The notes: generated from the sequence alone by a model not told the origin. DNA of 64,000 nucleotides from Prochlorococcus sp. AG-402-P18 (GCA_003216275.1 QCJC01000007.1:1-64000); one strand, 5' to 3'. Shown: positions 46,209-63,646, counted from the stretch's first letter. A program made the numbers and translations.

Positions 46209-46622
46209 ATGCAGAAGAATTTAGAAATTATCAGGACTTTAGAACTTGAAAATTTTACCAAAATTGATATTGAGGAAATTTTAAATTATTTAGAAACTCT
46301 AGAGTATCAACTTGAGAATACTTGTTATATAGGAAGTATTTTGTCTAGCAATGAAAGATTAGCTAAATATTTTTTTTTAAGAGATCACTTAAGGTTTAAT
46401 ATTGATTCTTTAGATGAATTTTCTCATGTCAAAGAAATTCTAGATCAATGTATTGATTGGAGTGAATTCTGGAGATTATTAGTAATTAAAAAGGGTTTTT
46501 GTTGTATTAAGTTGTCACGTCAGTTAACTAAGAGGCGATGTTATGTATTTCTTGCCGGTTCTAATATTCTGTCTGGTCCTTGTGCTGATATATCATATTC
46601 AATTCATGATGACGACGATTAA
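46209..46622 (+). CDS. Hypothetical protein, 137 residues
   Basis: This soluble helical protein ends in a run of acidic residues (SIHDDDD). The N-terminal half is strongly alpha-helical (LEIIRTLELENFTKIDIEEI). The second half contains three cysteines and a basic patch (KLSRQLTKRRC). There is no recognised family. It follows the DUF4912 gene and probably shares its transcript. Confidence 0.5.
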   Translation: MQKNLEIIRTLELENFTKIDIEEILNYLETLEYQLENTCYIGSILSSNERLAKYFFLRDHLRFNIDSLDEFSHVKEILDQCIDWSEFWRLLVIKKGFCCIKLSRQLTKRRCYVFLAGSNILSGPCADISYSIHDDDD

Positions 46623-46742
46623 TCACATTCATGTTTGTTTTTTCTGAATGTTGTTAGTAACAGAATTCTTTTGTATCAATTAAATGAACTTATGATAAAT
46701 TAAATTTTTTGGTTTACTCTTAGCTAAAGTATATTTTTTATC

Positions 46743-47408
46743 TTGTCAACTTATTTAATCACTGGAGCCAATAGAGGTATTGGTTTGGAACTAGTTCGCC
46801 AATTAAAAGATAGGGAAGAAGACGTTATAGCTACCTGTAGATCCTCATCTGCCGAATTGGACTCCCTCTCTGTTCGAGTTGAGACAGGTATTGACATTAC
46901 TTCAGGAGACTCAGTTATAGAGCTTAGAAAAAAATTAACAGGTATTACAATTGATGTTTTAATTCAAAATGCAGGAATAGCAGAATTTAATTCTCTCACG
47001 AACTTGGATCCGCAAAGTATTGTTAATCAATTTGAAGTTAATGCTTTAAGTCCGCTTTGTTTTGTTCAAGAAATGCTTGGACATCTTAATAAGCCTTCAA
47101 AGATAGCTTTAATAACTAGCCGTATGGGTTCAATAGAGGACAATACTTCTGGGGGCTCATATGGATACAGAATGTCAAAAGTAGCTTTATGTATGGCTGG
47201 TAAATCTTTATCAGTAGACTTGAAGGCAAATCAAATTGCAGTAGCAATTTTACATCCTGGATTAGTAAGTACTCGAATGACTGGTTTTACTTCAAATGGA
47301 ATTCAACCAGAAGAATCAGTCAAAGGTCTGATTCAAAGAATTGATGAACTTACGCTCCAAAATACTGGTACTTTTTGGCATTCAAATGGAGAAATATTAC
47401 CTTGGTAA
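46743..47408 (+). CDS. Short-chain dehydrogenase/reductase
   Basis: This 221-residue classical SDR starts at TTG. The coenzyme motif TGANRGIG spans residues 7-14. NAG is near residue 79, the catalytic serine is in ITSRMGS, and YGYRMSK gives the Y-x-x-x-K pair. The sequence is close to the CsgA-like/carbonyl-reductase group. The substrate is unknown. It is convergent with the small HhH gene. Confidence 0.85.
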   Translation: MSTYLITGANRGIGLELVRQLKDREEDVIATCRSSSAELDSLSVRVETGIDITSGDSVIELRKKLTGITIDVLIQNAGIAEFNSLTNLDPQSIVNQFEVNALSPLCFVQEMLGHLNKPSKIALITSRMGSIEDNTSGGSYGYRMSKVALCMAGKSLSVDLKANQIAVAILHPGLVSTRMTGFTSNGIQPEESVKGLIQRIDELTLQNTGTFWHSNGEILPW

Positions 47409-47479
47409 CCATTCCCATTATTCATTTCATATTTTTGGAATATTGTAGTTGATTACATAGTAAAGAATTGACAGTTTAT

Positions 47480-47749
47480 TTATATTCTTCCTAAGGTCTT
47501 TCTAAGCTTTTTTACAAAGCCAATACCTACACCAGGTATGGTTAAAAGTTCTTCATCAGATGCAGCGATAATTGATTCTGGAGTCATATACCCAGCTTCG
47601 TAGAAGATATTGCAATTTTTTGTTCCTATTCCTGGAATAGATGTAAGATTTTCGCACCTATCTGATAACTTCTCTCCTTGCTTATTAAAAATTCTAAAAA
47701 TGTTTGTAATTTTCTTTTTTGTTTTTAATAAGATTTTTTCGATCAGCAT
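47480..47749 (-). CDS. Helix-hairpin-helix protein
   Basis: The C-terminal 55 residues hold two helix-hairpin-helix units (SIPGIGTKNCNIFYEAGY and TIPGVGIGFVKKLRKTLG). This is the fold used for sequence-independent DNA contact in RuvA, UvrC and the DUF4332 group. The N-terminal part is basic. The 89-residue product might be a stand-alone DNA-binding accessory protein. No partner gene is adjacent, except that an orphan ParA is divergent from it. Confidence 0.65.
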   Translation of the reverse strand: MLIEKILLKTKKKITNIFRIFNKQGEKLSDRCENLTSIPGIGTKNCNIFYEAGYMTPESIIAASDEELLTIPGVGIGFVKKLRKTLGRI

Positions 47750-48001
47750 TTCTTTACATTATTCATTACCTTAAATATGATGCAAAAAAAATATCTTGCA
47801 AGTTTTAATATTTTCTTTTGATGATGAATTTAGCAATAATTGCGAGGAAAAGTAATCAAATATACAAATTAATCTTATAATAATTTGGTTTTCTTATGTT
47901 TTAATATATCAATTATTAGTATTACTTGATTAATCTTCCTTTGGGTACTTGACTTTGTATTCAGATCCAGCAAATTATTTTTAGATATAAAGTTAAGTCC
48001 T
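47750..48001. other. Intergenic region between divergent HhH and ParA genes
   Basis: These 252 bases are without a recognised signal. Both promoters should lie here. Confidence 0.35.
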
Positions 48002-48673
48002 TTGTTTATAACTGTATGTGGCCAAAAGGGTGGAGTAGCTAAAACTTGTACCTCTATCCACTTAGCAAGTGTTTGGTTCTCTCAAGGGAAAAATGTTTGC
48101 GTAGTTGATGCAGATAGAAATCGATCCGCTTTAGCATATGGATCTAGAGGCAATCTTAAATTTAATATAGTTCCTGTAGAAGCAGCAGCGAAAGCAACAA
48201 GAGTCTCAGAAATTGTGATTACGGATGGTCAAGCAAGTACTGATGAAGAAGAGTTAAAACATTTAGCTGCTGGCTCAGATCTTGTCCTTTTACCTACAGC
48301 TCCCAAAGCAAGGTCAGTAGAATTAACTGTTGAATTAGCCTCTTTACTAAAGCAGTTAAATATTCCTCATGCTGTTTTGCTTGTCAAAGTAGATTTTCGC
48401 CAGAAACGAATTGCAATGGAAGCAAGAGAAGCTTTAGAGAAATTTGAGTTAAATGTTTTGGATGGCGATATTCCATTGTTGTCAGCGTTTGACAAAGCCG
48501 AAAATCAGGGAGCTTCCGTCATTGATGCAGTTGACGATAAAGGTCGCTCCGATCCCAGGCGAATGTCTGGTTGGTCGGCCTACTGTTCCATTGCTCAACA
48601 AATCCAATGCCTGATTTCGAAGCCCTTGTTCGACATCAACAAGCCAGTCGAAAACCTACCAATGAGCGCTTAA
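48002..48673 (+). CDS. Orphan ParA/MinD-type ATPase
   Basis: This 223-residue P-loop ATPase starts at TTG. The deviant Walker A CGQKGGVAKT (6-15), with the signature lysine, is followed by VVDADRNRSAL as switch I. Walker B-like DLVLLPTAP is at about 94-102. Family members use ATP-driven dimer switching to move plasmids, chromosomes or protein clusters on DNA or membranes. No parB follows. Instead a one-helix membrane protein gene overlaps its 3' end, which could be its anchor or partner. Confidence 0.85.
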   Translation: MFITVCGQKGGVAKTCTSIHLASVWFSQGKNVCVVDADRNRSALAYGSRGNLKFNIVPVEAAAKATRVSEIVITDGQASTDEEELKHLAAGSDLVLLPTAPKARSVELTVELASLLKQLNIPHAVLLVKVDFRQKRIAMEAREALEKFELNVLDGDIPLLSAFDKAENQGASVIDAVDDKGRSDPRRMSGWSAYCSIAQQIQCLISKPLFDINKPVENLPMSA

Positions 48674-48852
48674 AAGTAGTTGATAAACTACCTATTGCGT
48701 ATAAGAGTCCTACTCCTCCTACTACTGATGGGAAAAACTTAAGTACATTACTCTTTGGTTTTGTCGGAGGATTAACTGGCTCGATTGTTGGTACAGCTCT
48801 TATTTTTTATCTTTCAGCAAAAGAATTTATTGATTTGAAACTCCTCTTTTAA
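48607..48852 (+). CDS. Single-pass membrane protein overlapping parA-like gene
   Basis: The most likely start is the ATG at 48607 (MPDFEALVRHQQASRKPTNE), giving 81 residues. The frame is open to 48571. There is one membrane helix at about 49-71 (STLLFGFVGGLTGSIVGTALI). The gene overlaps the ParA-like gene by 67 bases in another frame, so translation is coupled. The basic N-terminal 45 residues could face the ATPase. The partnership is inference. Confidence 0.55.
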   Translation: MPDFEALVRHQQASRKPTNERLKVVDKLPIAYKSPTPPTTDGKNLSTLLFGFVGGLTGSIVGTALIFYLSAKEFIDLKLLF

Positions 48853-48892
48853 ACTTGAATAATTATTTTATCTTAGGATACAAGTATTTCAT

Positions 48893-50728
48893 TTATATCT
48901 TAGATTCATTTCTTCTTTTTGCGACATCTACCATATCTGAAAAACTGTTCGATTTTTCTAGTAATTGTTGATAATTGCCATATGCATTGATTTTTCCGTT
49001 CTTAAATTCATATATACAATCTGATCTCTCAATAGTTGATAATCGATGAGCGATGGTTATAATCGTGCAACGTCTACCTATTATTTCAATTGCATCCATA
49101 ACATCTGCTTCTGTTTTGTTATCCAAAGCACTAGTTGCTTCATCTAAAACTAATAATTTTGATTTTCTATAAAATGCTCTAGCTAGAGCTAATCTTTGTC
49201 TTTGGCCGCCAGATAATCTAATTCCATTGTCACCTATTGGTGTATATAAACCTATTGGCATTTCTATTACTAAGTCTGCAAGTTGTGCAGCTTTAAGTGC
49301 ATCCCAAACTCTTTCATGATCAATGATTTTTTGATCTAATCCGTATGCAATATTTTCAATAATGTTGCTATTCAGCAAAGCAATTGATTGTGGAACATAA
49401 GAACAACAATCTTGCCATGCAGGTACCTCAGAATTGGTAACTTCAATTCCATCAATTAAGAGATTACCCTTAGTAGGTCTAAGAAGACATAATAATTGAT
49501 TAGCAGTAGTGGTTTTACCACTTCCAGTTTCTCCAACAAATGCAATTCTTGATCCAACAGGAATTGTAAGATTTATGTTTTCTAGAGTATAGTCTTCACT
49601 ATTAGGATACTTATAACTAAGTTTCTCTAATTGAATATTGTTTCTAGGCAGGATACCTTCTTTTGAAGGTACTCCTTTTGATCTTGTTGTTAGTCTATGA
49701 GTTGGTAATTCGATTATTTTTAAAATTTCTTCTAAATCTGGTATTGACGCTCGCATTGAAGTAAGAGCTTTAAATGAATCTTGCAATGGAGGTGTTAATT
49801 TAAGTGCTGCGACTGCAATTGTTGCTAAAAATGGCACAATTTCAATTAATGTCGACTCTTGCTGACCGGTTAGATATGGAAAAAGACCAATTGAAAAAAT
49901 TAAAGTAATCCCAAAGGGTTCTATAAGTGAACGTGGAAATTCAGGTAAGACTTCTGCTTTCCAAATAAAGGGGAAGGAATTTTTACCAGCTAATTTATAT
50001 TTTTTTTCAAAATATTGTTCCGAGCTAGTGAGATGTACATCAATGATTGTTCTCATTGACTCGGTAAGAATATTATTTGTCTCTTTCTCTAACCTTATTC
50101 TTTGACGTGAAGAATACCTTATAAATGGTGTTACAAATAATGATATGAATATATAAAAAATTAAAAGACTGATAATTAAATATAGGGCTATTGATTTTGC
50201 TATAAGAAGAACAGCAATACATATAAAAGTTATGACACATAATCCACTGGCAATTTGAAGTATTGGTCTAACTAAAAATTCTGAAACTCTAGAAATATTA
50301 ATTAGTATCTTAGATGATAAATCAGATTGTTTTTTGTTTAGGAAGAATTCATATGGTTGATAGAGTAGCTTTTTCTGTGCAAGTTCTGATAAATCACGCC
50401 ATATTGCTACTCTCAGCCTTTCTTGTGCGGCTTTTAGGAATAATTTTGAAAAAGAGGCTAGCCAATTCATTGATATGTAGATTATTACTAAACTGAGAAC
50501 TTTTGTTTTTGGGTCTTCAGGTATTAATTCTTGAAATGGTAAGGGAGGCTGATTTGGTTGACCAATAAATACAGTGAATAATCTTGATACAATCCCTACT
50601 ACAATTACATCAACTAAACCTGTTAAAGCAGCTACGGGGATTAATTTTACTAGCGACCTTCTTCTTTTTACTGGGAGTGCCTTAAGTAGACGCACCAATA
50701 GGTGATATGTCTTGCTGTTGCGAATCAT
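48893..50728 (-). CDS. ABC exporter, membrane and ATPase domains fused (MsbA-like)
   Basis: This 611-residue type IV ABC exporter half has six membrane helices (about 25-320) and a C-terminal ATPase. Walker A is GETGSGKTTT near 400, the signature is LSGGQRQRLALARA near 505, and Walker B is LLVLDEATSALD. It is closest in layout to exporters of lipid-linked glycans and lipid A. It lies at the edge of a cluster of glycosyltransferases, so export of a lipid or glycan intermediate is a fair inference. It works as a dimer in the plasma membrane. Confidence 0.85.
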   Translation of the reverse strand: MIRNSKTYHLLVRLLKALPVKRRRSLVKLIPVAALTGLVDVIVVGIVSRLFTVFIGQPNQPPLPFQELIPEDPKTKVLSLVIIYISMNWLASFSKLFLKAAQERLRVAIWRDLSELAQKKLLYQPYEFFLNKKQSDLSSKILINISRVSEFLVRPILQIASGLCVITFICIAVLLIAKSIALYLIISLLIFYIFISLFVTPFIRYSSRQRIRLEKETNNILTESMRTIIDVHLTSSEQYFEKKYKLAGKNSFPFIWKAEVLPEFPRSLIEPFGITLIFSIGLFPYLTGQQESTLIEIVPFLATIAVAALKLTPPLQDSFKALTSMRASIPDLEEILKIIELPTHRLTTRSKGVPSKEGILPRNNIQLEKLSYKYPNSEDYTLENINLTIPVGSRIAFVGETGSGKTTTANQLLCLLRPTKGNLLIDGIEVTNSEVPAWQDCCSYVPQSIALLNSNIIENIAYGLDQKIIDHERVWDALKAAQLADLVIEMPIGLYTPIGDNGIRLSGGQRQRLALARAFYRKSKLLVLDEATSALDNKTEADVMDAIEIIGRRCTIITIAHRLSTIERSDCIYEFKNGKINAYGNYQQLLEKSNSFSDMVDVAKRRNESKI

Positions 50729-50870
50729 TTTATGAAATTACTTACTTTTGAGGTATTATTTGCGTTTAATCAGCCAGTTCTTGGGGTGTTTGGTTATGCG
50801 TTTTTTTGTTTATAAGAAATAATTGTGGAGAAGTTTAATCTCTAATAAGTATTTTGTTGAGATTATTTAA

Positions 50871-51380
50871 TTATGTTTTAGTCGCTATCAAATATCCGAA
50901 AAAAATTAATATGAGTACTGGCATTAAGTAAATAATGATCATAAAACCAGACAAAAATACAAATAGAATCAATAAGAATATAATTCCTATTAATATAATT
51001 TGTAGAAATCGTTTGATACGATTTATCCAGAAAATACCTTTGATTTTTTCTAGATTTATTTGTAGTTCTCTTCTTCTATCATATAATTCTTTCAATTTAT
51101 TTTTGTGCCAATCTATTGACTCATCTATTTTTGATCTGTAGATATTTTTCCCTAAGCTCTCTATGAAATTATTGGATTTTGAAAACGTTGATCTCAATTT
51201 TACAATTTGTGCTTCAATCAGTGCTGAACTATTTTCTGATATTTTTTGGTCTATACCGATGATTTCAATATTGATTTGACTTGCTAAGTCAGAATTCTCA
51301 TTTGAATTATATTTTATAATCCCATAATTTTTATTTTGTTTGTATTTAAAAAATCTATAAAAAAAGTTTGCTCTCAACAT
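50871..51380 (-). CDS. Coiled-coil membrane hypothetical protein
   Basis: The 169-residue product has a long charged helical region (about 30-115, with KNKLKELYDRRRELQINLEK-like content). Two adjacent hydrophobic helices follow near the C-terminus (about 120-165, LQIILIGIIFLLILFVFLSG). This suggests a cytosolic coiled coil on a hairpin anchor. No family is recognised. It is upstream of the exporter gene on the same strand with a 142-base gap. Confidence 0.5.
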   Translation of the reverse strand: MLRANFFYRFFKYKQNKNYGIIKYNSNENSDLASQINIEIIGIDQKISENSSALIEAQIVKLRSTFSKSNNFIESLGKNIYRSKIDESIDWHKNKLKELYDRRRELQINLEKIKGIFWINRIKRFLQIILIGIIFLLILFVFLSGFMIIIYLMPVLILIFFGYLIATKT

Positions 51381-51428
51381 CTGACTTAGTATTATTTAAA
51401 ATAGATTTGCTATGCGAATATTATAACA

Positions 51429-52493
51429 ATGTCATCTATAGTTTTTAATGGCAGCTATATCACCTCAAAAAACACAGGGATAGGAGTTGTTTCTAGGGAT
51501 CTAGTTGAATCTTTAAATGCTCAGAATATCACTACACTTATTCCAGAAGATATAGGAGTGAAAGGTGATATTTACATTCCTAATAATCTTGCACCTGGTC
51601 AAGGTTCTATAAGTCATTTTAGGCGTTTGTACTGGCTTCAAAAAGTTGTTCCAAAAATCATGAATAATTTAAATGCGCAATATTTTCTATCTCCATTATT
51701 GGAAGCCCCACTATTTACTAATGTAAAATCTATTGTTTTAGCTCATGATTTGATACCACTAAGGTATCCCTCAATATCATTTTTAACTTTATATCATCTA
51801 ATTTATATACCTTTAGTTTTAAAACAATCAAAGCTAATTTTATGCAACTCTATCTCTACTGCTAATGACTTGCACTCTTTTTACAATGTTCCTAGAAATA
51901 AATTACTTCCAATTAAATTAGGTTTTAATAACAAAAAGTATTATCCATTAAATAAAAATAGAAAAAAATTCTTTCTTATTATAGGTAGACATAATCCTCA
52001 TAAGAATTTGGAAAGGGTTATTAGAGCATTTTCATTTGCAAAGATTAATGATTATAAACTTATTTTTGTAGGTTCCTATGACAAAAGATATACACCAAAA
52101 TTATTAGAAATAATTGACGACTTGAATATTAGACATTTATGTGAGTGGAAAGGTTGGATTAATGATGAGGAAAAATTACTACTACTAAATCAATGTCAGG
52201 CACTGATTATAGCGAGTCTTTGGGAAGGGTTTGGCCTTCCTGCTCTTGAAGCAATGGCTTGTGGAACGCCTGTAATAGCTTCGGAAAGAGGAGCACTTCC
52301 TGAAGTTATTGGAGATTATGGTTATTTGATAAATCCACTAGATATTCATTCAATAGCTTCTGCTATGAATGCAATTGTTAATGATAAAAAATGTTTTGAA
52401 AAGGCTCTTAATGAAGGTCCGAGACGGGCTGCCTCTTTTAATTGGGTTGATACTGCTAGGTTAATAGAGAAAATTATTCAAGAAATGGAATAA
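51429..52493 (+). CDS. Glycosyltransferase family 4
   Basis: This 354-residue GT-B enzyme has a nucleotide-sugar domain in its C-terminal half. FLIIGRHNPHKNLERVIRAF opens that domain, and the E-x7-E motif appears as EGFGLPALEAMACGTPVIAS near residue 267. The N-terminal half has NGSYITSKNTGIGVVSRDL, the acceptor side. GT4 enzymes retain the anomeric configuration and commonly build surface polysaccharides. It is part of the envelope cluster with the exporter, the GT-C enzyme and the dprE-like operon. Confidence 0.88.
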   Translation: MSSIVFNGSYITSKNTGIGVVSRDLVESLNAQNITTLIPEDIGVKGDIYIPNNLAPGQGSISHFRRLYWLQKVVPKIMNNLNAQYFLSPLLEAPLFTNVKSIVLAHDLIPLRYPSISFLTLYHLIYIPLVLKQSKLILCNSISTANDLHSFYNVPRNKLLPIKLGFNNKKYYPLNKNRKKFFLIIGRHNPHKNLERVIRAFSFAKINDYKLIFVGSYDKRYTPKLLEIIDDLNIRHLCEWKGWINDEEKLLLLNQCQALIIASLWEGFGLPALEAMACGTPVIASERGALPEVIGDYGYLINPLDIHSIASAMNAIVNDKKCFEKALNEGPRRAASFNWVDTARLIEKIIQEME

Positions 52494-52702
52494 AAATAAA
52501 TCTCTAGTTCTACCCTATTTGTTTATACTTGATGAATTAAATGGATTTGAATACTTGTTCATAATACTGATGACTTTAGATATTTCAATTTCCTACAAGA
52601 CAATCGTTAAATATAGTATTTGATTAAATAAATCCACTTTTAAGACTGCTTACTTCATAAACTAATAATGCTAAAATAATATATTCGACACTATTGCTAA
52701 GA

Positions 52703-52876
52703 ATGTCAAGTAAAAAATCTAAGAAAAAATCAACTTCTAAGATCATTGATCCTAATTTAGAAAAAAAAGCAACTCCTACAACTGCAAAAATCGTTCTTTT
52801 TGTATTTGGCGTTGGGCCTTTACTTATTATGTGTTTATTTTTATTTTCAAATGGATTTTTTAGTTCACCTGGATAA
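52703..52876 (+). CDS. Small membrane protein, 57 residues
   Basis: I chose the ATG at 52703 (MSSKKSKKKSTSK); a TTG three codons earlier is less likely. A lysine-rich N-terminus is followed by one membrane helix (about 30-50, AKIVLFVFGVGPLLIMCLFL), so the N-terminus should be cytoplasmic. The sequence has the look of a conserved small cyanobacterial protein of unknown function. It precedes the GT-C gene by 44 bases on the same strand. Confidence 0.6.
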   Translation: MSSKKSKKKSTSKIIDPNLEKKATPTTAKIVLFVFGVGPLLIMCLFLFSNGFFSSPG

Positions 52877-52920
52877 TTTAGTAATTCACGGAAGAATAAA
52901 CTAAACTATCTTTATTAATA

Positions 52921-54441
52921 ATGTTGAGAATGATTTATAGGCAAATCCGTTTTATTTTATATAATCATTTAAAAAATTTTTCTATCTGGCCAGTTTTCTT
53001 TTTAGGCTTGACTCTAAGATTAGTGAATATCAATGCCCCTGTATTAGGAGTTCATAGTTGGCGTCAAGCTGACACAGCATCCATAGCAAGAAACTTTTTA
53101 TCGAATGATCTGATTTTTTGGCAGCCTCAAGTTAATTGGTCTGGTTCTACAAGTGGATTTGTTGAATGTGAATTCCCATTATATCAATATCTAGTAGCAA
53201 ATTTATATAAGATCTTTGGAGTTAATGAAGTTTTCGCAAGAGGATTATCAATAACCTTTGGATGTCTATCAATATTATTTTTATTTAGATTAACAAAAAA
53301 AATTTTTAATCTTGAAGTGGCTTGGTGGGGAACTCTCTTTTATTCAATATTACCAATTACTGTTTTTTATAGTAGAACTATTCAACCAGAATCCTTAATG
53401 ATTTTTCTTGGTATTTTTTCATTGGAGAGATGGATTACATTTATTAATACAAAAAATATAAAGACATTACTGTTGTCTTGGTTATCTTTTACTTTAGCAG
53501 TTCTAATAAAGGTTTTGCCCTTATTTTGGATTGGTATTCCTATACTTATTAGTGCATATCAGAGAGATTTGATTTTCAAATATAAATTATATATTTTTCC
53601 AATATTAACTATATTAGCTTGTTTTATTTGGTATTCTTATTCGTATGAAATGGGGCAATCTACTGGTTTAACATTTGGTCTTTGGGGTTCAGATACTGAT
53701 CGCTATTCTTGGTTAACTTTATTAGAATTTAGATTTTATCTTGATCTTCTTATTAGGATTTTGTTTAGAAATTTTCTTTTACTAGGATTTTTCCCTATTT
53801 TTTTATCAATAAAAATAATAGGGACCAATAATATGTTTTTTATTGGAATCCTATCAGTTCTCTTTACAGGATTAATTAATCCTAGTTCTTTTGCTATACA
53901 TGAGTATTATCAGCTCCCTCTAATGATATTTAGCTGCCCTTTGATGGGATATGGATTTGTGAGATTAAAAAGAACCTCATATCAAAATAATATTTTAATT
54001 TTCATTTTTACCACCCTAATGTTTCTAAGTAGTTTAATTATGTTAAAGATTGATTATTGGGATATGGAACATAAAAGTCGACAACCTGTTTGGGATACGT
54101 CTCAGTTGATAAAAAATAATACAAACCAATCAGATCTAATAATTTCTATAACGGGTGGTGATCCTACAATGTTGTATCTTGCGAATAGGAAAGGTTGGCT
54201 TGTTTCACCAGTAGAAATTACTGAGAAATCAATTTTAGAATGGAAAAGTAGAGGAGCAAAATACATATCTGGAAGTTGGAATGTTATAGAAAGCTATAAT
54301 AAATTTTCGGATGAGAAACTTAAAAAAAGACTAAGTAAATTAATATGTAATACTTCTATATCTGATCAGTTTTATAGAAAGGGATGTGAAGAGAAAGATA
54401 ATTCATATTTAATAGATTTACAGTCACTAAATAATTTTTAA
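52921..54441 (+). CDS. GT-C fold glycosyltransferase (PMT/ArnT-like)
   Basis: The 506-residue polytopic protein has an early acidic loop motif in GVHSWRQADTASIARNF (about residues 40-56). Around ten membrane helices and a polar C-terminal domain (about 380-506) follow. This is the pattern of GT39/GT83-type enzymes, which take the sugar from a polyprenyl-phosphate donor on the outer face. Its last 15 bases overlap the 3' end of the DprE1-like gene, whose pathway would make polyprenyl-phosphate arabinose. It is therefore a candidate user of that donor. Confidence 0.75.
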   Translation: MLRMIYRQIRFILYNHLKNFSIWPVFFLGLTLRLVNINAPVLGVHSWRQADTASIARNFLSNDLIFWQPQVNWSGSTSGFVECEFPLYQYLVANLYKIFGVNEVFARGLSITFGCLSILFLFRLTKKIFNLEVAWWGTLFYSILPITVFYSRTIQPESLMIFLGIFSLERWITFINTKNIKTLLLSWLSFTLAVLIKVLPLFWIGIPILISAYQRDLIFKYKLYIFPILTILACFIWYSYSYEMGQSTGLTFGLWGSDTDRYSWLTLLEFRFYLDLLIRILFRNFLLLGFFPIFLSIKIIGTNNMFFIGILSVLFTGLINPSSFAIHEYYQLPLMIFSCPLMGYGFVRLKRTSYQNNILIFIFTTLMFLSSLIMLKIDYWDMEHKSRQPVWDTSQLIKNNTNQSDLIISITGGDPTMLYLANRKGWLVSPVEITEKSILEWKSRGAKYISGSWNVIESYNKFSDEKLKKRLSKLICNTSISDQFYRKGCEEKDNSYLIDLQSLNNF

Positions 54442-55791
54442 TCTGATTGCTATGTCAGATTTAAATATCTTTTTAGGATCTAATATCCGTTTTTTTTCTT
54501 GCCAAATATTTAACAATTTATAAGTCTTTTTAAATATATATTCTGACTGTCTTGAATCCTTAGCAAGGTAAATTCTTCCTCCAATATGAGCTACTTCTTT
54601 ATCAATTTCATTCAATAACGATTCAACTTCTTTATTATTTGCTGGAAGATCTATAGATAGGGTCCATCCTGATATTGGAAATGATAAATAACTTTTATTT
54701 GGTTTACCTAATTTTTTTAACACAGGTAAAAAACTTAATGCATTAATTCCTTTTAATTTTACTAATATCTTTTTAATCATAGCGCTATGTTCTAGGGGCA
54801 CAACAATTTGATATTGAAGGAATCCTTTCTTACCATAAATATTATTCCAATTATTAATTGCATCTAAGGGATAAAAGAAATTATTAATTGATTTTAATTT
54901 TTTTTTCTTTCTTGTTTTAGGTGATTTTAGGTACCACAATTGATTGAAAATCTTTATTACAAACTTATTCATTATATTGTTTGGTAATATATCTGGAATA
55001 TTTGCTTTGGCTTTATGCTTGAAAGATAAATCTTTTATGTTTTTAGAGTTATTATATTTACTAATTTTAGCATGATTGCCACAGCTTAGAATCCCTCTAA
55101 AATCATTATGCATACTATCTATCCAAGCGACACTGTATTTATATTTAGTATCAATTTCACTCATTTCTTTTATTAAAACTTCTATGTTTTTACAACGCGT
55201 TGTTTCCTCCTCTATATATGATGTTTCTATTGGAATGATAGAAAAAGTAGCATCAATAATTATTCCAGTAAGACCCATACCGCCGATTGTCGCCCAAAAG
55301 AATTCTTTATTTTCGTTATTCGGGCTTAAAGTGATAGTTTTACCCATTCCATTAGTTAGTCTTATTCTTTTCACATGATTTCCAAAACTTCCGTCTTGAT
55401 GGTGATTTTTACCATGAATATCAGCTGCGATTGCACCTCCTAATGTGATTTTTTTTGTCCCAGGCGTAACAGGAAGAAAATAGCCTTTTGGGATGATTAC
55501 TTCTAATATTTCTTCAAATGAAACTCCAGCTTGTGCAGTAATTTCATTGCTATTGTAATTTGCAAAAATTTCTTTGAAATTATTTAATTTTAAGATTGTA
55601 CCTCCTTGAATTTGTGCTGCGTCTCCATATGATCTACCCATACCCCTTGCAATGATTGATTTAGGTGGAGAATTAATAATAATATTTTCGATCTCTTTGA
55701 TCGTTTTAGGGTTAATTATTTCTACGCTGGCTAAATTAGTCTTACCCCAACCACTTATTTTTTTAAATTTCGTTTTTAAGGATGATTTCAT
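54427..55791 (-). CDS. DprE1-like decaprenylphosphoryl-ribose 2-oxidase
   Basis: This 454-residue FAD enzyme of the vanillyl-alcohol-oxidase fold is predicted to oxidise the 2'-OH of polyprenyl-phosphoryl ribose. The DprE1 signatures are present: ARGMGRSYGDAAQ (about 45-57), PGTKKITLGGAIAADIHGKN, SFGNHV and ATIGGMGLTGII. Near the C-terminus S379 occupies the place of M. tuberculosis Cys387, and K411 in YLAKDSR that of the catalytic Lys418 (alignment from memory). It overlaps the DprE2-like gene by four bases. L-gulonolactone oxidases are the nearest alternative. Confidence 0.82.
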   Translation of the reverse strand: MKSSLKTKFKKISGWGKTNLASVEIINPKTIKEIENIIINSPPKSIIARGMGRSYGDAAQIQGGTILKLNNFKEIFANYNSNEITAQAGVSFEEILEVIIPKGYFLPVTPGTKKITLGGAIAADIHGKNHHQDGSFGNHVKRIRLTNGMGKTITLSPNNENKEFFWATIGGMGLTGIIIDATFSIIPIETSYIEEETTRCKNIEVLIKEMSEIDTKYKYSVAWIDSMHNDFRGILSCGNHAKISKYNNSKNIKDLSFKHKAKANIPDILPNNIMNKFVIKIFNQLWYLKSPKTRKKKKLKSINNFFYPLDAINNWNNIYGKKGFLQYQIVVPLEHSAMIKKILVKLKGINALSFLPVLKKLGKPNKSYLSFPISGWTLSIDLPANNKEVESLLNEIDKEVAHIGGRIYLAKDSRQSEYIFKKTYKLLNIWQEKKRILDPKKIFKSDIAIRLKII

Positions 55792-56537
55792 AGCTTAGAT
55801 GTTATGAAATTAGGAATAACTTTTATAACTGACATAATTAATACCCACCACCAAGGAACATATTCGATGCCGCGACGATGAGGTTTTTTTAATAAGTTCT
55901 TTGCAACTGACATTGCATTGACGCATAGCATTTTAGGAGCTCTACCCTTCGTCATAGGAGATGTTATATAGCCTGCTTTGATAATTCGTACTGAGAATGG
56001 CTTACCCTCACATCTTAGTGATAAGCCTTCGCAGAAAATTGTTAATGCAGCTTTGGCTGCTCCGTAATGGTAATTGCTTGGCCTTCCTTTGTCTGCCGCA
56101 ACTGAACTGAAAACCCATAACATTCCTTTCTCTGATAAACGCTCCTCTGATGCAATAGAAGTCATCCATGGAATTATTCCAGAGTAGTTAGATGCTGTAA
56201 TTTCTAATGCTTCTAGTGGACTTTCTCTTGCAAGTTCTGGGTTACCTAGCGAGCCTGCAGTTATCAAATAAAGATCAAAATTATCAACTTTTGGTTTGTT
56301 CAAATTTTGAATCTTAGAACTATCGATTAAATCAACTTTTTCTTGTGTTACATAAGCATTATATGTATTTTCTAATTTGTTAATTAATTCTTGGTTATGA
56401 ATCGGGCTTCTTGAAATCAAATGAAAGCGTTTGCAGTTGTGATTCTTTGCTAGTTCCAAACAGATAGCTTTTGCAACGATACTTGTACTTCCTAAAACAA
56501 AAGTACTTTTAATGTGGCTACAATGATTTTTATTCAA
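55788..56537 (-). CDS. DprE2-like short-chain reductase
   Basis: This 249-residue SDR starts at TTG two bases after the previous stop. The coenzyme loop is the atypical LGSTSIVAKAI (residues 16-26), as in DprE2, which lacks the classical TGxxxGxG. The catalytic site is SSVAADKGRPSNYHYGAAKAAL with Y-x-x-x-K. The C-terminal segment (RGIEYVPWWWVLIMSVIKVI) resembles the membrane-facing end of DprE2. With DprE1 it would convert the 2-keto intermediate to polyprenyl-phosphoryl arabinose. The four-base overlap with the dprE1-like gene supports a joint complex. Confidence 0.8.
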   Translation of the reverse strand: MNKNHCSHIKSTFVLGSTSIVAKAICLELAKNHNCKRFHLISRSPIHNQELINKLENTYNAYVTQEKVDLIDSSKIQNLNKPKVDNFDLYLITAGSLGNPELARESPLEALEITASNYSGIIPWMTSIASEERLSEKGMLWVFSSVAADKGRPSNYHYGAAKAALTIFCEGLSLRCEGKPFSVRIIKAGYITSPMTKGRAPKMLCVNAMSVAKNLLKKPHRRGIEYVPWWWVLIMSVIKVIPNFITSKL

Positions 56538-56538
56538 T

Positions 56539-58125
56539 TTAGCTTTTACCTGAAATTTGTGTTTGATTGAACGACTTTTTGTGAGCCTTATAGTTATTTA
56601 ATAATAGACATATCACTCCTAGTATCGTTGCGAACCAAAGTGTCATTAAGCGAATCAAAAATGTTGCTGATGTCGCTATAGATACAGGAATGCCTTGCAT
56701 AGACAAAAGTCCTATTGTGCTTGCTTCAGTAGGGCCTAGGCCACCTGGCATAAATGTTAATGCCCCTAGTAGAGAAGAAGTGGTGTGAGTGAAAGTAGCT
56801 GCAAGCCAGCTTATTGATGTATTAAAACCTTTTAATATAATAAAAAAGCTTGTACCTTCAATAATCCACGCAACTAATCCAAGCATTGTCGAAATAGTTA
56901 TATTTATAGGACTGATAAGAACTTTTATAAGATCTAAATTCTTGTTGTCAAACTGAATTTTCTTATTAGGTAGTATATTTTTAACAATGAATTTCAAAAG
57001 ATTTTGTATTATCTTTCTATTATTCAATAGTATAAGTACTAATCCTACAATTATTATAGAAAATAAAAATAGATTTAAATTGTTTTTACTATTGTTGATC
57101 GGAATAAGTTTAAAATTGAGGAAAAAGATCAATAAGACAGCCATACCGTCTGTTAACCTCTCTATAAAAAGTGCAGATAAAACTGGCATAATAGGAATTT
57201 TACACTGCTTGTTAAGTAGTAAAACTCTGATACCTTCTCCTGCCTTTCCGGGCGTCGCAGTAAAAGCAAATGATCCCATCCATATATAAATATTTTTGAG
57301 AATAGGTGGCTTCAGCTTAATACTTTCTAACATTAGATTCCATCTGAAAAATCTTATAACATAACTAATTATTACTAAGAATTCTCCTATTAAAATATTT
57401 ATCCAGATATTGTTAGGCTGTTTTTCATAATTAAAAAAAATCTCTAAATTACTAATTGCTAGATAAGTGAATATTGCAATCCCAATTATTGGAATGATTG
57501 AATTAAGTGAATAAATAGGGTACTCACTTGGACAATCTACAAAATTACGAAAATGTGGAATCGAAGCTGCATTAAGGATTTGTTGATCTCCTTTGCTATC
57601 ACCATATACTTCTAACTTTAGATTTTTTAGAGATCCATATCTCTCTTTTAATCTTTTTAATTTCTCATGACCTTGACAATTTTTACCCTTAATATTTGCA
57701 GTCCATTTGTCTCCAACTTTGGACATGTTAGTACAAATTAGATGAACATTTAATTCTTTTGCAAGTCCTTCCAATATCATGTCTGGTGAAGCAGAACATA
57801 AGATAACTATGTCACCTTTTTCTTTATGCATATTAAGTCTAGATAAAGCCTTTTTTCTAATTATTTTTTTCAAATCATTTACTAACCAATTTGGGTTATT
57901 TTGACTAATCTCTAAATTATATTTCTGGCATATTTTAAATCTTTCTATGAATGATTCTTTGACTTTCTTGGTATTAATCAATCTTAGTTTCCATGCAACT
58001 AAGAAAGGAATAAAATTTATACTAAACCATATTAACTCTATTAGACTATTTGACTTTCTAGCGGCTAAAAGAAGTGCATCTCCTCGAAGTAATGTTCTAT
58101 CTACATCAAATACTGCAATACTCAT
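56539..58125 (-). CDS. HAD phosphatase fused to LPG-synthase-type (flippase-like) membrane domain
   Basis: Residues 1-210 form a HAD-IB phosphatase: FDVDRTL with nucleophile D7 and acid D9, LCSASPD as motif II, and YGDSKGDQQ as motif IV. Residues about 215-520 hold eight or so membrane helices. They include the UPF0104/LPG-synthase-TM pattern (SFAFTATPGKAGEGIRVLLL, FMPGGLGPTEASTIGLLS). In the mycobacterial pathway a phosphatase acts after the UbiA step and a flippase moves the finished donor. This fusion could supply both. It lies between the UbiA-like and DprE2-like genes with one- and seven-base gaps. Confidence 0.75.
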   Translation of the reverse strand: MSIAVFDVDRTLLRGDALLLAARKSNSLIELIWFSINFIPFLVAWKLRLINTKKVKESFIERFKICQKYNLEISQNNPNWLVNDLKKIIRKKALSRLNMHKEKGDIVILCSASPDMILEGLAKELNVHLICTNMSKVGDKWTANIKGKNCQGHEKLKRLKERYGSLKNLKLEVYGDSKGDQQILNAASIPHFRNFVDCPSEYPIYSLNSIIPIIGIAIFTYLAISNLEIFFNYEKQPNNIWINILIGEFLVIISYVIRFFRWNLMLESIKLKPPILKNIYIWMGSFAFTATPGKAGEGIRVLLLNKQCKIPIMPVLSALFIERLTDGMAVLLIFFLNFKLIPINNSKNNLNLFLFSIIIVGLVLILLNNRKIIQNLLKFIVKNILPNKKIQFDNKNLDLIKVLISPINITISTMLGLVAWIIEGTSFFIILKGFNTSISWLAATFTHTTSSLLGALTFMPGGLGPTEASTIGLLSMQGIPVSIATSATFLIRLMTLWFATILGVICLLLNNYKAHKKSFNQTQISGKS

Positions 58126-58132
58126 AAATAGA

Positions 58133-59053
58133 CTAATTAGTGATTAGGCCAATAAAAATTGTTGTCAATAACCAACCTGCAACTGTAATGCGAATGCCCC
58201 TATCTCTGAGAAGAATCTCTTCTGGATTCTCTGCAGTTCTTCTCACTTTGTCGTTGCTCCTTCTATTAGCTTCCTCGGGATCACTAAGCAATTGGTATTG
58301 AAAAATGCCTATTAATACGAATGGAACTGTTAATAACATCCAGCTTGTTTTGGCTCCTTGTAATGCTGGTCCTGCTGCCCAAAGGGAGTAAGTGACAAAT
58401 GAGCTTGTTGCAACAAGACTTTCAATCCTCAAAAGTAGTGGCAGAGAATATCTTGTGAGAACTTTTCTTGTGATCTCTTTATTGATACTTATATTTCTTA
58501 TTTCTGCTTTTCTTTTTTCTAATGCGAGAAACAATGCTAATAGACCTATTGATAAAAGAAACCATGGTGAAATTATTAGACCTGAAGATATCCCTCCCGC
58601 TATTGCTCTTAAAAGGAAACCACTTGATATGCACATTAAGTCAAACAAGGGCTCTTCTTTCAGCTTTAAACAGTAAATTATTTGTATAGTGAGATATATA
58701 GATAGAATCAGCAACAGAGGATTTGATACTAGAAAAGCTAGATATAAACTAATTATTATCAGAATTAATGAAAATAAATAAGCGGTTTGCTCTGATAATA
58801 ATTTAGCTGCAATTGGTCTGAATTTTTTAATTGGATGTAGTCGATCAAATTTTGCATCAATAATGTCATTAAATATATAAACTGCAGACGATAACAAACA
58901 GAAGCAAACAAGAGTTTGTAGTGATTTCAGCCAGATTACAAATTCTGGCTGAAAACTAAAAAGAGGCGCAGCAAAAACTAATAGATTTTTTGTCCAATGT
59001 CTTGGCCGACTTGCCTTGAAAAGCAGCTTAGATATCGAAAATATCGAGTTCAT
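58133..59053 (-). CDS. UbiA-family phosphoribosyl-polyprenyl-phosphate synthase
   Basis: The 306-residue, nine-helix prenyltransferase-fold protein has FNDIIDAKFDRLHPIKKFRP (about 61-80) as the first Asp motif. The second site is LKLKEEPLFDLMCISSGFLLRAIAGG (about 128-153). The DR-x-HP-x-K-x-x-RPIA form is that of decaprenyl-phosphate phosphoribosyltransferase (DPPR synthase), not of ubiquinone or chlorophyll enzymes. It would join polyprenyl phosphate to PRPP. It is first in the operon with the HAD fusion, DprE2-like and DprE1-like genes; the promoter should be above 59053. Confidence 0.82.
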   Translation of the reverse strand: MNSIFSISKLLFKASRPRHWTKNLLVFAAPLFSFQPEFVIWLKSLQTLVCFCLLSSAVYIFNDIIDAKFDRLHPIKKFRPIAAKLLSEQTAYLFSLILIIISLYLAFLVSNPLLLILSIYLTIQIIYCLKLKEEPLFDLMCISSGFLLRAIAGGISSGLIISPWFLLSIGLLALFLALEKRKAEIRNISINKEITRKVLTRYSLPLLLRIESLVATSSFVTYSLWAAGPALQGAKTSWMLLTVPFVLIGIFQYQLLSDPEEANRRSNDKVRRTAENPEEILLRDRGIRITVAGWLLTTIFIGLITN

Positions 59054-59216
59054 TTGTTGTTGTTAATCCTTGACCTTTATTTGTAGGTCAAGAGATTTTG
59101 TTATTAATGATTCTATGCTTTTTATGTCTGCTTTTTACAACATCATTGTTCATTGATCTATATATGAATCATTTCTTTTGCTTTTCTAGCTAAAATTGGT
59201 TTTTAACGTATCACTA

Positions 59217-61433: not shown

Positions 61434-61546
61434 AATTATTGGATTTTGCCCCCAAAGCTTATTTTGACTTTTTTTGAGATCTTGAGACCCATTGCGCTGC
61501 AATTACAAAGGATCCCTTTTAGATCACGTGGATTAATTAGCTAATA
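61434..61546 (-). repeat. ssrA-downstream repeat, copy R1
   Basis: This is a copy of R3 (63221-63335), sharing the cores AATTATTGGATTTTGCCCCC, CCAAAGCTTATTTTGACT and ATTGCGCTGCAATT. Its hairpin part has diverged (GGATCCCTTTTAGATC). It lies at the outer end of the two-gene block. Confidence 0.85.
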
Positions 61547-61587
61547 ATCCTAGGATTCTATTGGAAGTTAATTTCACCGTAATGCTC

Positions 61588-62241
61588 TTAGTCGTCGTCT
61601 TTGTTGCTTAAATAATTAGCAAAACTATCTTCGTCAATCTTTAATCCTTTTAAATATGCAATTATTGGGTCAATATTTTCAACTATAAAATTCTTTTCCT
61701 TGTCAAATTTTCCTGGACAATCAAATGTCATTTGATATACATCATCGTCTTTTTCATCATCCCAGCAGTCAAAAACCCATCCTGGTGTGATAGCTATTTT
61801 GATTGGACTTTCTCCACTAGTTGTTGTGTCAAGTTCGTAGAGTTCTTTTTTGGCTTTTATATCAAATGGCGCTTTAATTCTAGTTATTGCAACTATTGTC
61901 TCGTCTTCTCCACCTAGGTTTAGATTCCCGATTTTTTCTCCAATAAGTTCTACATTCTTTAATAAGGGATTAAAATGTCTGTTAGCTGAATATTCATTAA
62001 ATACTGTAATTCGAATTTTGTTAGGCAAGAGATTCTTAGATTCATCAATTTTTAATGACCAACTTTCTGGTTCCTTGTTCTTCTCTTCAATTTCCCAATC
62101 GTAACAAAATGGAGCTGCGATTGAATCATTTATAAATTTAATCATTAAATTGTCTAAAATTTTTGGAAAGTTATCTATTTCTTTGATTTCTATATCTTCT
62201 ACAACGAATGAAATATCATTTTGAAAATCATATTGATTCAT
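61588..62241 (-). CDS. Hypothetical protein of the ssrA-linked block, 217 residues
   Basis: This acidic soluble protein (KDDD and DDEKDDD clusters) has no membrane helix or recognised domain. Visible stretches are a beta-rich middle (NKIRITVFNEYSANRHFNPL) and a C-terminal helical end. It lies between repeats R1 and R2. No homologue is known to me. The composition (acidic, Asn/Lys rich) matches the neighbouring 231-residue protein, but I see no clear sequence similarity. It is probably cargo inserted behind the tmRNA gene. Confidence 0.55.
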   Translation of the reverse strand: MNQYDFQNDISFVVEDIEIKEIDNFPKILDNLMIKFINDSIAAPFCYDWEIEEKNKEPESWSLKIDESKNLLPNKIRITVFNEYSANRHFNPLLKNVELIGEKIGNLNLGGEDETIVAITRIKAPFDIKAKKELYELDTTTSGESPIKIAITPGWVFDCWDDEKDDDVYQMTFDCPGKFDKEKNFIVENIDPIIAYLKGLKIDEDSFANYLSNKDDD

Positions 62242-62332: not shown

Positions 62333-62419
62333 TTTTGCCCCCAAAGCTTATCTTGAGCCCATTGCGGTGCAATTAAAAAGAACCCCTTCCAGCGTCCATG
62401 GATCAATTGGGTAATAAGA
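62333..62419 (-). repeat. ssrA-downstream repeat, copy R2
   Basis: This copy lacks about 25 bases in the middle compared with R3. It keeps the outer AATTATTGGATTTTGCCCCC core and the CAGCGTCCATGGATCAATTG end. It lies ten bases from the stop of the 231-residue gene. Confidence 0.85.
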
Positions 62420-62428
62420 GCTTGTTGC

Positions 62429-63124
62429 CTAGTTAAATCCAATTTCTTCATCACCATCAATCCAGAACTCTCCTTCTCCTCCATCAGCATCAACAAAAGA
62501 TAATGTCGATATGCCTATAGACTCAGCTAGGAATTTTATTTGTATACCTAATTCATATAGAAGGTCATTGTCATTCGCTAAAGAATCATTGCATTTATTG
62601 AATTGTAGAAATTTTATTATTTCTTGACGTTCCTCAATGTTTATGTTCTCAAATTCTGTTTTTTCAGTTGCTAGACGAACAAATGGTTCATGATCTTTTG
62701 TTAATGGTTCAAATAACTTATTACTAGAAATACCAGCTCTTAGATTGATTGTGTAATCATTACACGACGGATTCGTTTCAATATTCATTCCATAAATATT
62801 TATTTCCAAGGGCTCTGGATTCTTTAATGCTTTTATCGGATTTTTGAACTTTATGGATGCCTGATCAGTTTCAGCGGAGATTGTTTCTGGCAACCATAAG
62901 TCAATTGGTTCATCTGGTGGTTCAAAAATATTTTTGATTTTATTCTGCAAATCTGTTGGCAGATTATTTCTTTGTTCTGTAGCAAGGGTTTTATTAAACT
63001 CTTCAACTGAATTAAAACCCATTAATTCAAGCATCTCTGATATTACTTTTTCGTCCAATTGGACTTGGTCGCTCTCTAAATTTCCTGGAGCGTAGTAACG
63101 CCAACATCCAAAGTGATATGACAT
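62429..63124 (-). CDS. Hypothetical protein of the ssrA-linked block, 231 residues
   Basis: I chose the ATG at 63124 (MSYHFGCWRYYAPGN). The frame is open up to 63289, but that part is the translated repeat R3 and not real protein. The product is acidic and soluble, with an EEFNKTLATEQRNNLPTDL helix and an acidic tail (DADGGEGEFWIDGDEEIGFN). No domain is recognised. It lies between repeats R3 and R2, directly behind the tmRNA gene on the same strand. Confidence 0.55.
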   Translation of the reverse strand: MSYHFGCWRYYAPGNLESDQVQLDEKVISEMLELMGFNSVEEFNKTLATEQRNNLPTDLQNKIKNIFEPPDEPIDLWLPETISAETDQASIKFKNPIKALKNPEPLEINIYGMNIETNPSCNDYTINLRAGISSNKLFEPLTKDHEPFVRLATEKTEFENINIEERQEIIKFLQFNKCNDSLANDNDLLYELGIQIKFLAESIGISTLSFVDADGGEGEFWIDGDEEIGFN

Positions 63125-63220
63125 ATCTAATGAATAAGCTATTAAAAATAATACATTCAATCCATAACTGACAGTAAAACTAATAATTTGATTACTTTGC
63201 TTTAAAAAGACTTTTAAGAG

Positions 63221-63335
63221 AATTATTGGATTTTGCCCCCAAAGCTTATTTTGACTGTTTTTGAGATCTTGAGACCCATTGCGCTGCAATTAAAAAGGAC
63301 GCCTTCCAGCGTCCATGGATCAATTGGGTAATAAG
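63221..63335 (-). repeat. ssrA-downstream repeat, copy R3 (contains ssrA terminator)
   Basis: This is the native downstream flank of ssrA and includes the terminator hairpin at 63297-63314. R1 and R2 are copies of it, so the duplicated unit begins at the end of the tmRNA transcript. Confidence 0.85.
63297..63314 (-). terminator. Intrinsic terminator of ssrA
   Basis: On the minus strand a six-base stem (GGACGC / GCGTCC) with a six-base loop is followed by TTTTTAATT. It lies just after the tmRNA sequence. Confidence 0.8.
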
Positions 63336-63549
63336 GCTGATCTGACCCCATCTCCCTTAGAGATCAAGCAGCAACAGGGGCTGTTTGACGGGAGAAACTA
63401 ACGATGTTGTTAGCAGTTATGGTTTTGCTCTGACCGAGCAGGCTTCAGTCACTCTCCTGATACCCCGTCGAAGCCATTGCAGCCCCATTTGATGGAGCTG
63501 AGCGGAATCGAACCGCTGTCCGAGATACTGGTGTGAATCACCTAGTCCA
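63316..63549 (-). ncRNA. ssrA: Transfer-messenger RNA, permuted two-piece form
   Basis: On the minus strand the acceptor piece comes first. It has the T-arm AGCGG-TTCGATT-CCGCT and the acceptor half CAGCTCC plus discriminator A at 63493. A six-base spacer (63487-63492) is cut out. The coding piece starts GGGGCTG at 63486. The halves pair over seven bases with G3-U70, the alanine identity mark. CCA is not encoded. The tag frame (63364-63414) reads ANNIVSFSRQTAPVAA and stop. This permuted form is known in picocyanobacteria. Outer ends are approximate. Confidence 0.93.
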
Positions 63550-63646
63550 TTAAAAAATAGACAAATATATTCTGACAGATCTTTTGAAATTTATCGATTA
63601 GGGTTAAAAAGAAGCTTTCAAAAGCTTTTTGATTAAGTTAAAAGTC

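Follow-up and report, generated by a model that had tools for sequence, protein, structure and literature searches.

A present-or-absent five-gene unit with predicted arabinofuranose donor synthesis and transfer in Prochlorococcus

What is a set of genes resembling the mycobacterial route to an arabinofuranose donor doing in a picocyanobacterium? The question is raised by a 64,000-nt stretch of Prochlorococcus sp. AG-402-P18 (QCJC01000007.1:1-64000; hereafter the window, to which coordinates refer), in which four packed minus-strand genes at 54427-59053 were described, in a reading made from the sequence alone, as a mycobacteria-like polyprenyl-phosphate arabinose operon. All four open reading frames (ORFs) are open and were verified at the positions given in that sequence-only reading, with the spacing that it reported (gaps of 7 bp and 1 bp, one overlap of 4 bp), and the family matches of their products lie well outside what chance would give. 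According to our analysis, donor synthesis of the DPPRS/DprE1/DprE2 type, yielding a polyprenyl-phosphate pentose, is strongly supported. The four genes and a glycosyltransferase gene of the GT-C type form a 6.2-kb cassette, which probably works, as three-component systems do, as a self-contained module for decoration with a pentofuranose. Two points are new in this analysis: the sharp bounds of the five-gene unit and the fusion of the phosphatase to a flippase-like domain. The unit and its genes are as follows.

52880-59120, no strand: five-gene insertion/deletion unit, with about 50-70 bp in its stead in seven genomes of the genus
58133-59053, minus strand: UbiA-family polyprenyl-phosphate 5-phosphoribosyltransferase (DPPRS/PPPRS type), 306 aa (NF008978, PDB 8j8j, substrate-site residues)
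56539-58125, minus strand: fusion protein, 528 aa, with an N-terminal HAD-IB phosphatase (predicted 5-phosphatase) and a C-terminal PF03706 flippase-like membrane domain (Pfam/NCBIfam, HAD motifs, fold)
55788-56537, minus strand: short-chain dehydrogenase/reductase (SDR), DprE2-like, predicted 2-keto reductase, 249 aa (NF053786 below cut-off; place beside DprE1)
54427-55791, minus strand: DprE1-like FAD oxidase, 454 aa (NF053785, PDB DprE1, catalytic residues)
52921-54441, plus strand: GT-C membrane glycosyltransferase, predicted arabinofuranosyltransferase, 506 aa (PMT_2, fold, position inside the unit)

The UbiA protein scored 237 bits with the DPPR-synthase model NF008978, above the curated threshold of 207, stayed under the cut-offs of two sister models and matched the PDB structure of Rv3806c (8j8j) with E=4e-45. 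The paper on that structure (PMC10994848) provided a list of eleven residues binding phosphoribosyl pyrophosphate (PRPP) or decaprenyl phosphate; ten are identical in the window protein, and the remaining one is changed by Y157F, a phenylalanine that also occurs in some mycobacteria (PMC10994848). The same pattern was found in 19/19 full-length cyanobacterial UbiA orthologues. Four other UbiA proteins of the same genome, taken as a control, retain 3-6 of the eleven residues, and K28, Y70 and Q135 are present in none of them. Therefore, a quinone- or chlorophyll-pathway UbiA is ruled out, and the DPPR-synthase motif recognized in the sequence-only reading is upheld.

The oxidase, previously called DprE1-like, retained that identity. 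It scored narrowly under the cut-off of the DprE1 model NF053785 (E=1e-144, 482.7 bits, cut-off 500), which several Cyanobiaceae orthologues exceed; it matched M. smegmatis DprE1 in the PDB with E=6e-97 and aligned with mycobacterial DprE1 over the full length. Among the residues selected as important in DprE1 structures, Y60, H132, K134, W230, Q334, Q336, K367 and K418 are retained, while C387 is replaced by Ser and N385 by Thr. Position 387 is Ala in 40/44 non-mycobacterial DprE1 homologues, and C387S in M. tuberculosis DprE1 causes high resistance (PMC8776228); covalent inhibition by benzothiazinones is thus unexpected.

The SDR matched the DprE2 model NF053786 over its full length (E=2e-27), at 96.5 bits against a cut-off of 250. 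Its gene directly adjoins that of DprE1 in the window, in every intact Cyanobiaceae locus seen and in 36/40 gammaproteobacterial loci. The earlier label of a DprE2-like SDR thus stands mainly by context: the protein works like DprE2, rather than is DprE2, and this role rests chiefly on its constant place beside DprE1.

We give next to no credence to the explanation that an ordinary quinone-type UbiA and an unrelated oxidase of the sugar-lactone type simply lie side by side. Both superfamilies are large and generic, and weak matches to those families are present, but the DPPRS and DprE1 models score far above the alternative ones, and the residue tests point the same way; at the sequence level this explanation is refuted. 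Best matches to quinone-pathway UbiA enzymes or unrelated oxidases, which the sequence-only reading had named as telling against itself, were not obtained.

Where does the system begin and end? In seven near-complete genomes of the genus, the left flank (46236-52879) is followed by the right flank (59117 onward) with about 50-70 bp between them. The left flank, which holds ABC, membrane-protein and GT4 genes, is about 77% identical in these genomes; its collinearity stops at 52879-52914 (in six of the seven at 52879 or 52886-52887) and resumes on the right at 59117-59125. The absent 6.2 kb comprise exactly the genes for GT-C, DprE1, SDR, the HAD:PF03706 fusion and UbiA, and the unit is also present at the same site in two other genomes of the genus (G314/L126 and G296/L041). 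Since the seven genomes lack the GT-C gene together with the rest and keep the GT4 and ABC genes, the former belongs to the unit and the latter two are independent of it. The GT-C enzyme, GT4 enzyme and ABC exporter had all been noted as lying nearby; as obligate parts of the unit, the last two are ruled out and are listed here as backbone.

51429-52493, plus strand: GT4 glycosyltransferase, outside the unit (Pfam; kept in genomes without the unit)
48893-50728, minus strand: MsbA/PglK/HepA-like ABC exporter, outside the unit (family matches only; kept in genomes without the unit)

The GT4 enzyme is a possible maker of the acceptor glycan. The GT-C and DprE1 genes share 15 bp at their 3' ends. 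The former encodes a protein of the Pfam family PMT_2; with a model of moderate confidence based on six sequences (mean predicted local distance difference test, pLDDT, 69), Foldseek retrieved oligosaccharyltransferases and ArnT, with a weaker match to the arabinosyltransferase AftA, as befits a GT-C fold. Overall, the donor synthase, the phosphatase, a flippase candidate (by family only) and the GT-C enzyme all lie within the 6.2-kb unit. An orthologous GT4-GT-C-DprE1-ABC neighbourhood was found in another genus (L040).

The ends of the unit show no target-site duplication or terminal repeat above the AT-rich background, and base composition is uninformative on foreign origin (GC 0.306 in the unit vs 0.312 in the left backbone). 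A phage collection searched for DprE1 gave no match, and a phage-borne cassette was dropped as an explanation. Directly to the left of the unit lies a conserved small ORF (52704-52877, about 58 aa, one hydrophobic segment).

The second gene of the run had been read as a HAD phosphatase. The HAD domain was confirmed (residues 4-184), but the protein also bears, at residues 249-503, a flippase-type domain related to MprF, PF03706 ("LPG_synthase_TM"; "flippase-like" in NCBIfam), matched with 131 bits against a cut-off of 33.4. In the AlphaFold model (mean pLDDT 78), the N-terminal part resembles HAD phosphatases and the C-terminal part MprF (9goe, 7duw; E=5e-4 for 9goe). Sixteen HAD:PF03706 fusions were aligned end to end, and the HAD motifs DxDxT, S, K and GDSxxD are invariant in all of them. 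When species genomes were scanned by HAD peptide patterns only, 13/13 named full-length fusions among the matches listed had a DPPRS-type UbiA no more than 8 kb away. The fusion is present in 18/24 Cyanobiaceae DprE1 loci, at least two of the other six running into a contig edge, and in 0/40 gammaproteobacterial ones (Fisher P ~4e-11, shared ancestry ignored). Outside Cyanobiaceae, one cyanobacterium with the fusion was found (L142).

Proteobacteria show these parts without the fusion. Two loci (L158, L159) have the row polytopic protein, DprE1, SDR, HAD, UbiA, PF03706; L059 and L071 contain all five parts as separate genes, L071 with GtrA in addition. Polaromonas-type loci combine UbiA, PF03706, a PMT_2 GT-C and HAD, without DprE1. 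By family and fold, the PF03706 domain of the fusion is a likely flippase.

How might these parts work together? In the proposed pathway, UbiA would move 5-phosphoribose from PRPP to polyprenyl phosphate, and the HAD domain would take off the 5-phosphate. Oxidation at C2 by DprE1 and reduction by the SDR would then give polyprenyl-phosphoryl-D-arabinofuranose. Flipping of the lipid-linked sugar into the periplasm may fall to the PF03706 domain of the fusion, and GT-C would then pass arabinofuranose (Araf) to a glycan (or protein) that is outside beforehand; the acceptor is plausibly a glycan made with the neighbouring, always-present GT4 and ABC genes. We thus predict that a surface glycan is arabinofuranosylated in the periplasm as a polymorphic trait, and the arabinofuranose-containing envelope glycan of the sequence-only reading is kept as a prediction. 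For a broader proposal, we judge the balance to be even: that PF03706 is a polyprenyl-phosphate-pentofuranose flippase in many Gram-negatives, fused to the phosphatase in cyanobacteria, and that the unit with GT-C is a present-or-absent surface-glycan trait of Prochlorococcus. If so, the fusion of the cyanobacterial 5-phosphatase to PF03706 would physically link dephosphorylation and flipping.

Strong DprE1 matches were found in about 22/300 Cyanobiaceae (the raw tally of 285/300 being mostly generic FAD oxidases), 10/244 sampled cyanobacteria and 69/369 sampled gammaproteobacteria. Among the carriers, Synechococcus sp. Tobar12-5m-g, Synechococcus sp. CS-1325 and Cyanobium usitatum Tous are apparently isolates in culture. 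Two layouts occur in Cyanobiaceae. Type A, to which the window belongs, contains UbiA, HAD:PF03706, in some cases a second PF03706 gene, SDR and DprE1, and GtrA was not seen in it. Type B contains UbiA, SDR, DprE1, an epimerase, an FAD oxidoreductase, GtrA and a divergent HAD:PF03706. In the DprE1 tree, the window sequence groups with its genus mates; the clade that contains them is supported (98/95) and consists of 28 Cyanobiaceae-type sequences, and import from mycobacteria was rejected on this basis. The deep order of the tree is unsafe because of midpoint rooting and long branches. The comparison with mycobacteria is apt for the type of donor pathway, but this pathway is not peculiar to them: DprE1 loci are frequent among gammaproteobacteria and scattered among cyanobacteria. 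Among the papers searched, none links DprE1, arabinofuranose and cyanobacteria, and none links Prochlorococcus and decaprenyl.

Families, catalytic residues, fusion and unit borders draw their support from sequence; the reactions, the acceptor, the flipping and the stereochemistry of Araf are all inferred. Several observations weigh against the proposed pathway. The SDR is far under the curated DprE2 cut-off and scores better with another SDR model. The L040 cassette has no HAD:PF03706 nearby (genome 64% complete). Homologues of GT-C occur where DprE1 was not found, namely in G272 (L127:10305-11801; 67% identity, another variable region, genome 87% complete) and in G300 (L128:8826-10373; about 40% identity, 54% complete). 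GtrA is also present in type-B cassettes and in L071, which leaves room for a flippase other than PF03706, and MprF, another user of PF03706, acts on other lipids.

The last two points bear on an alternative that we regard as possible but doubtful, in which the fusion exists for another reason: PF03706 would move a different lipid or would anchor or scaffold the phosphatase, and another protein would flip. In its favour are the same GtrA genes, the aminoacyl-phosphatidylglycerol moved by the solved relative MprF, and a second PF03706 protein encoded elsewhere in the window's own genome. Against it, PF03706 genes lie near DprE1 in 9/40 gammaproteobacterial loci, well over a rough chance rate, and beside DPPRS in ribose-type loci, and type-A cassettes, the window included, show no GtrA. 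Mutual exclusion of PF03706 and GtrA was rejected: 0/15 gammaproteobacterial loci have both, which is not significant (P=0.19), and type-B cassettes and L071 contradict it.

Would the product necessarily be Araf? Another pentofuranose, either unepimerised ribose or a different epimer, could be formed if the SDR or the oxidase had a different specificity. The SDR score and the existence of ribose-type relatives without DprE1 are in line with this, yet the DprE1 key residues are kept and, among sequenced strains whose glycan structures are known, DprE1/E2 homologues go with glycans that contain Araf (PMC11127046), so that we consider such a product quite improbable.

As to the acceptor, the same donor could serve to place Araf on protein, for instance on a type IV pilin, by analogy with the group IV pilins of Pseudomonas aeruginosa. 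Pilin arabinosylation by DPPRS orthologues has a precedent, as summarised in PMC11127046, and the predicted GT-C fold resembles protein-glycosylating oligosaccharyltransferases as well as ArnT. No pilin gene, however, is visible adjoining the unit, and a glycan acceptor fits better with the GT4 and MsbA/PglK/HepA-type ABC neighbours; we consider the pilin version unlikely.

Which known system, then, does the cassette resemble most? Its logic has a biochemical precedent in Citrobacter (Kelly et al., 2024; PMC11127046), where polyprenyl-phosphate-ribofuranose is made by a synthase-phosphatase, presumably flipped by a MATE protein and used as donor by a GT-C enzyme. The window shares with the three-component systems of Citrobacter youngae O1/O2 a polyprenyl phosphoribose synthase, a HAD phosphatase, a flippase (in the window a candidate) and a GT-C and, with the systems of Kelly et al., the DprE1/E2 homologues of the Araf versions and a side-chain decoration, predicted for the window, that differs among strains. 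It differs in that the phosphatase is fused to PF03706, whereas in Citrobacter one protein combines synthase and phosphatase and flipping is ascribed to a MATE protein. We class the cassette with the three-component pentofuranose systems described by Kelly et al. (2024), as a variant of these, and not as a mycobacterial import.

With the mycobacterial decaprenylphosphoryl-arabinose pathway (Rv3806c, Rv3807c, DprE1/DprE2, Rv3789), the cassette shares homologous DPPRS and DprE1 proteins with key residues kept and an SDR at the DprE2 position. Unlike in mycobacteria, its phosphatase is of the HAD and not the Rv3807c family, a GtrA/SMR flippase is missing from it, Ser replaces C387 of DprE1, and its GT-C resembles PMT_2 proteins and is distant from Emb/Aft enzymes. 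We know of no arabinogalactan context for the window system, again unlike mycobacteria. In Pseudomonas, according to the summary in PMC11127046, the D-Araf pathway serves pilin glycosylation (Harvey et al., 2011); this resembles the window in DPPRS-type donor synthesis for arabinofuranosylation beyond actinobacteria and differs in the pilin acceptor and in the P. aeruginosa phosphatase PA7_6246, which belongs to another family. The C-terminal domain of the fusion shares sequence family and fold with the flippase domains of MprF but, unlike these, is joined to a HAD phosphatase and tied to genes for polyprenyl-phosphate pentose, not to aminoacyl-phospholipid synthesis.

Since the donor pathway is common among bacteria, its occurrence here is a new location and not new biochemistry. 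The HAD:PF03706 fusion, with its unfused counterparts beside the same synthase, represents a concrete and testable candidate family. In addition, the clean presence or absence of the unit offers a genetic handle on surface variation in one of the most abundant ocean phototrophs, and may bear on recognition by phages or grazers.

Some minor observations concern related loci. In Cyanobium CV13-4-11 (L048:7048-10824), UbiA, HAD:PF03706 and a polytopic protein occur without SDR, and DprE1 was not found in the genome; this is likely a ribofuranose version. A cyanobacterial cluster encodes a second DprE1-like protein (L142:9720-11027) with H132, K134 and K418 replaced, probably a paralogue that has lost DprE1 activity. 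In Prochlorococcus AG-402-B05 (L042:3357-4752), DprE1 is split into two overlapping frames by a frameshift or an assembly error. Finally, in the right part of the window, a transfer-messenger RNA (tmRNA) gene lies on the minus strand at 63273-63582, and two partial repeats of one of its ends occur at 61486-61547 and 62358-62418, one matching at 95% over 61 bp and the other at 79% over 62 bp. They flank ORFs at 61588-62241 and 62429-63289. This looks like repeated integration at ssrA, and copies of the tmRNA-end repeats are also present in loci of relatives.

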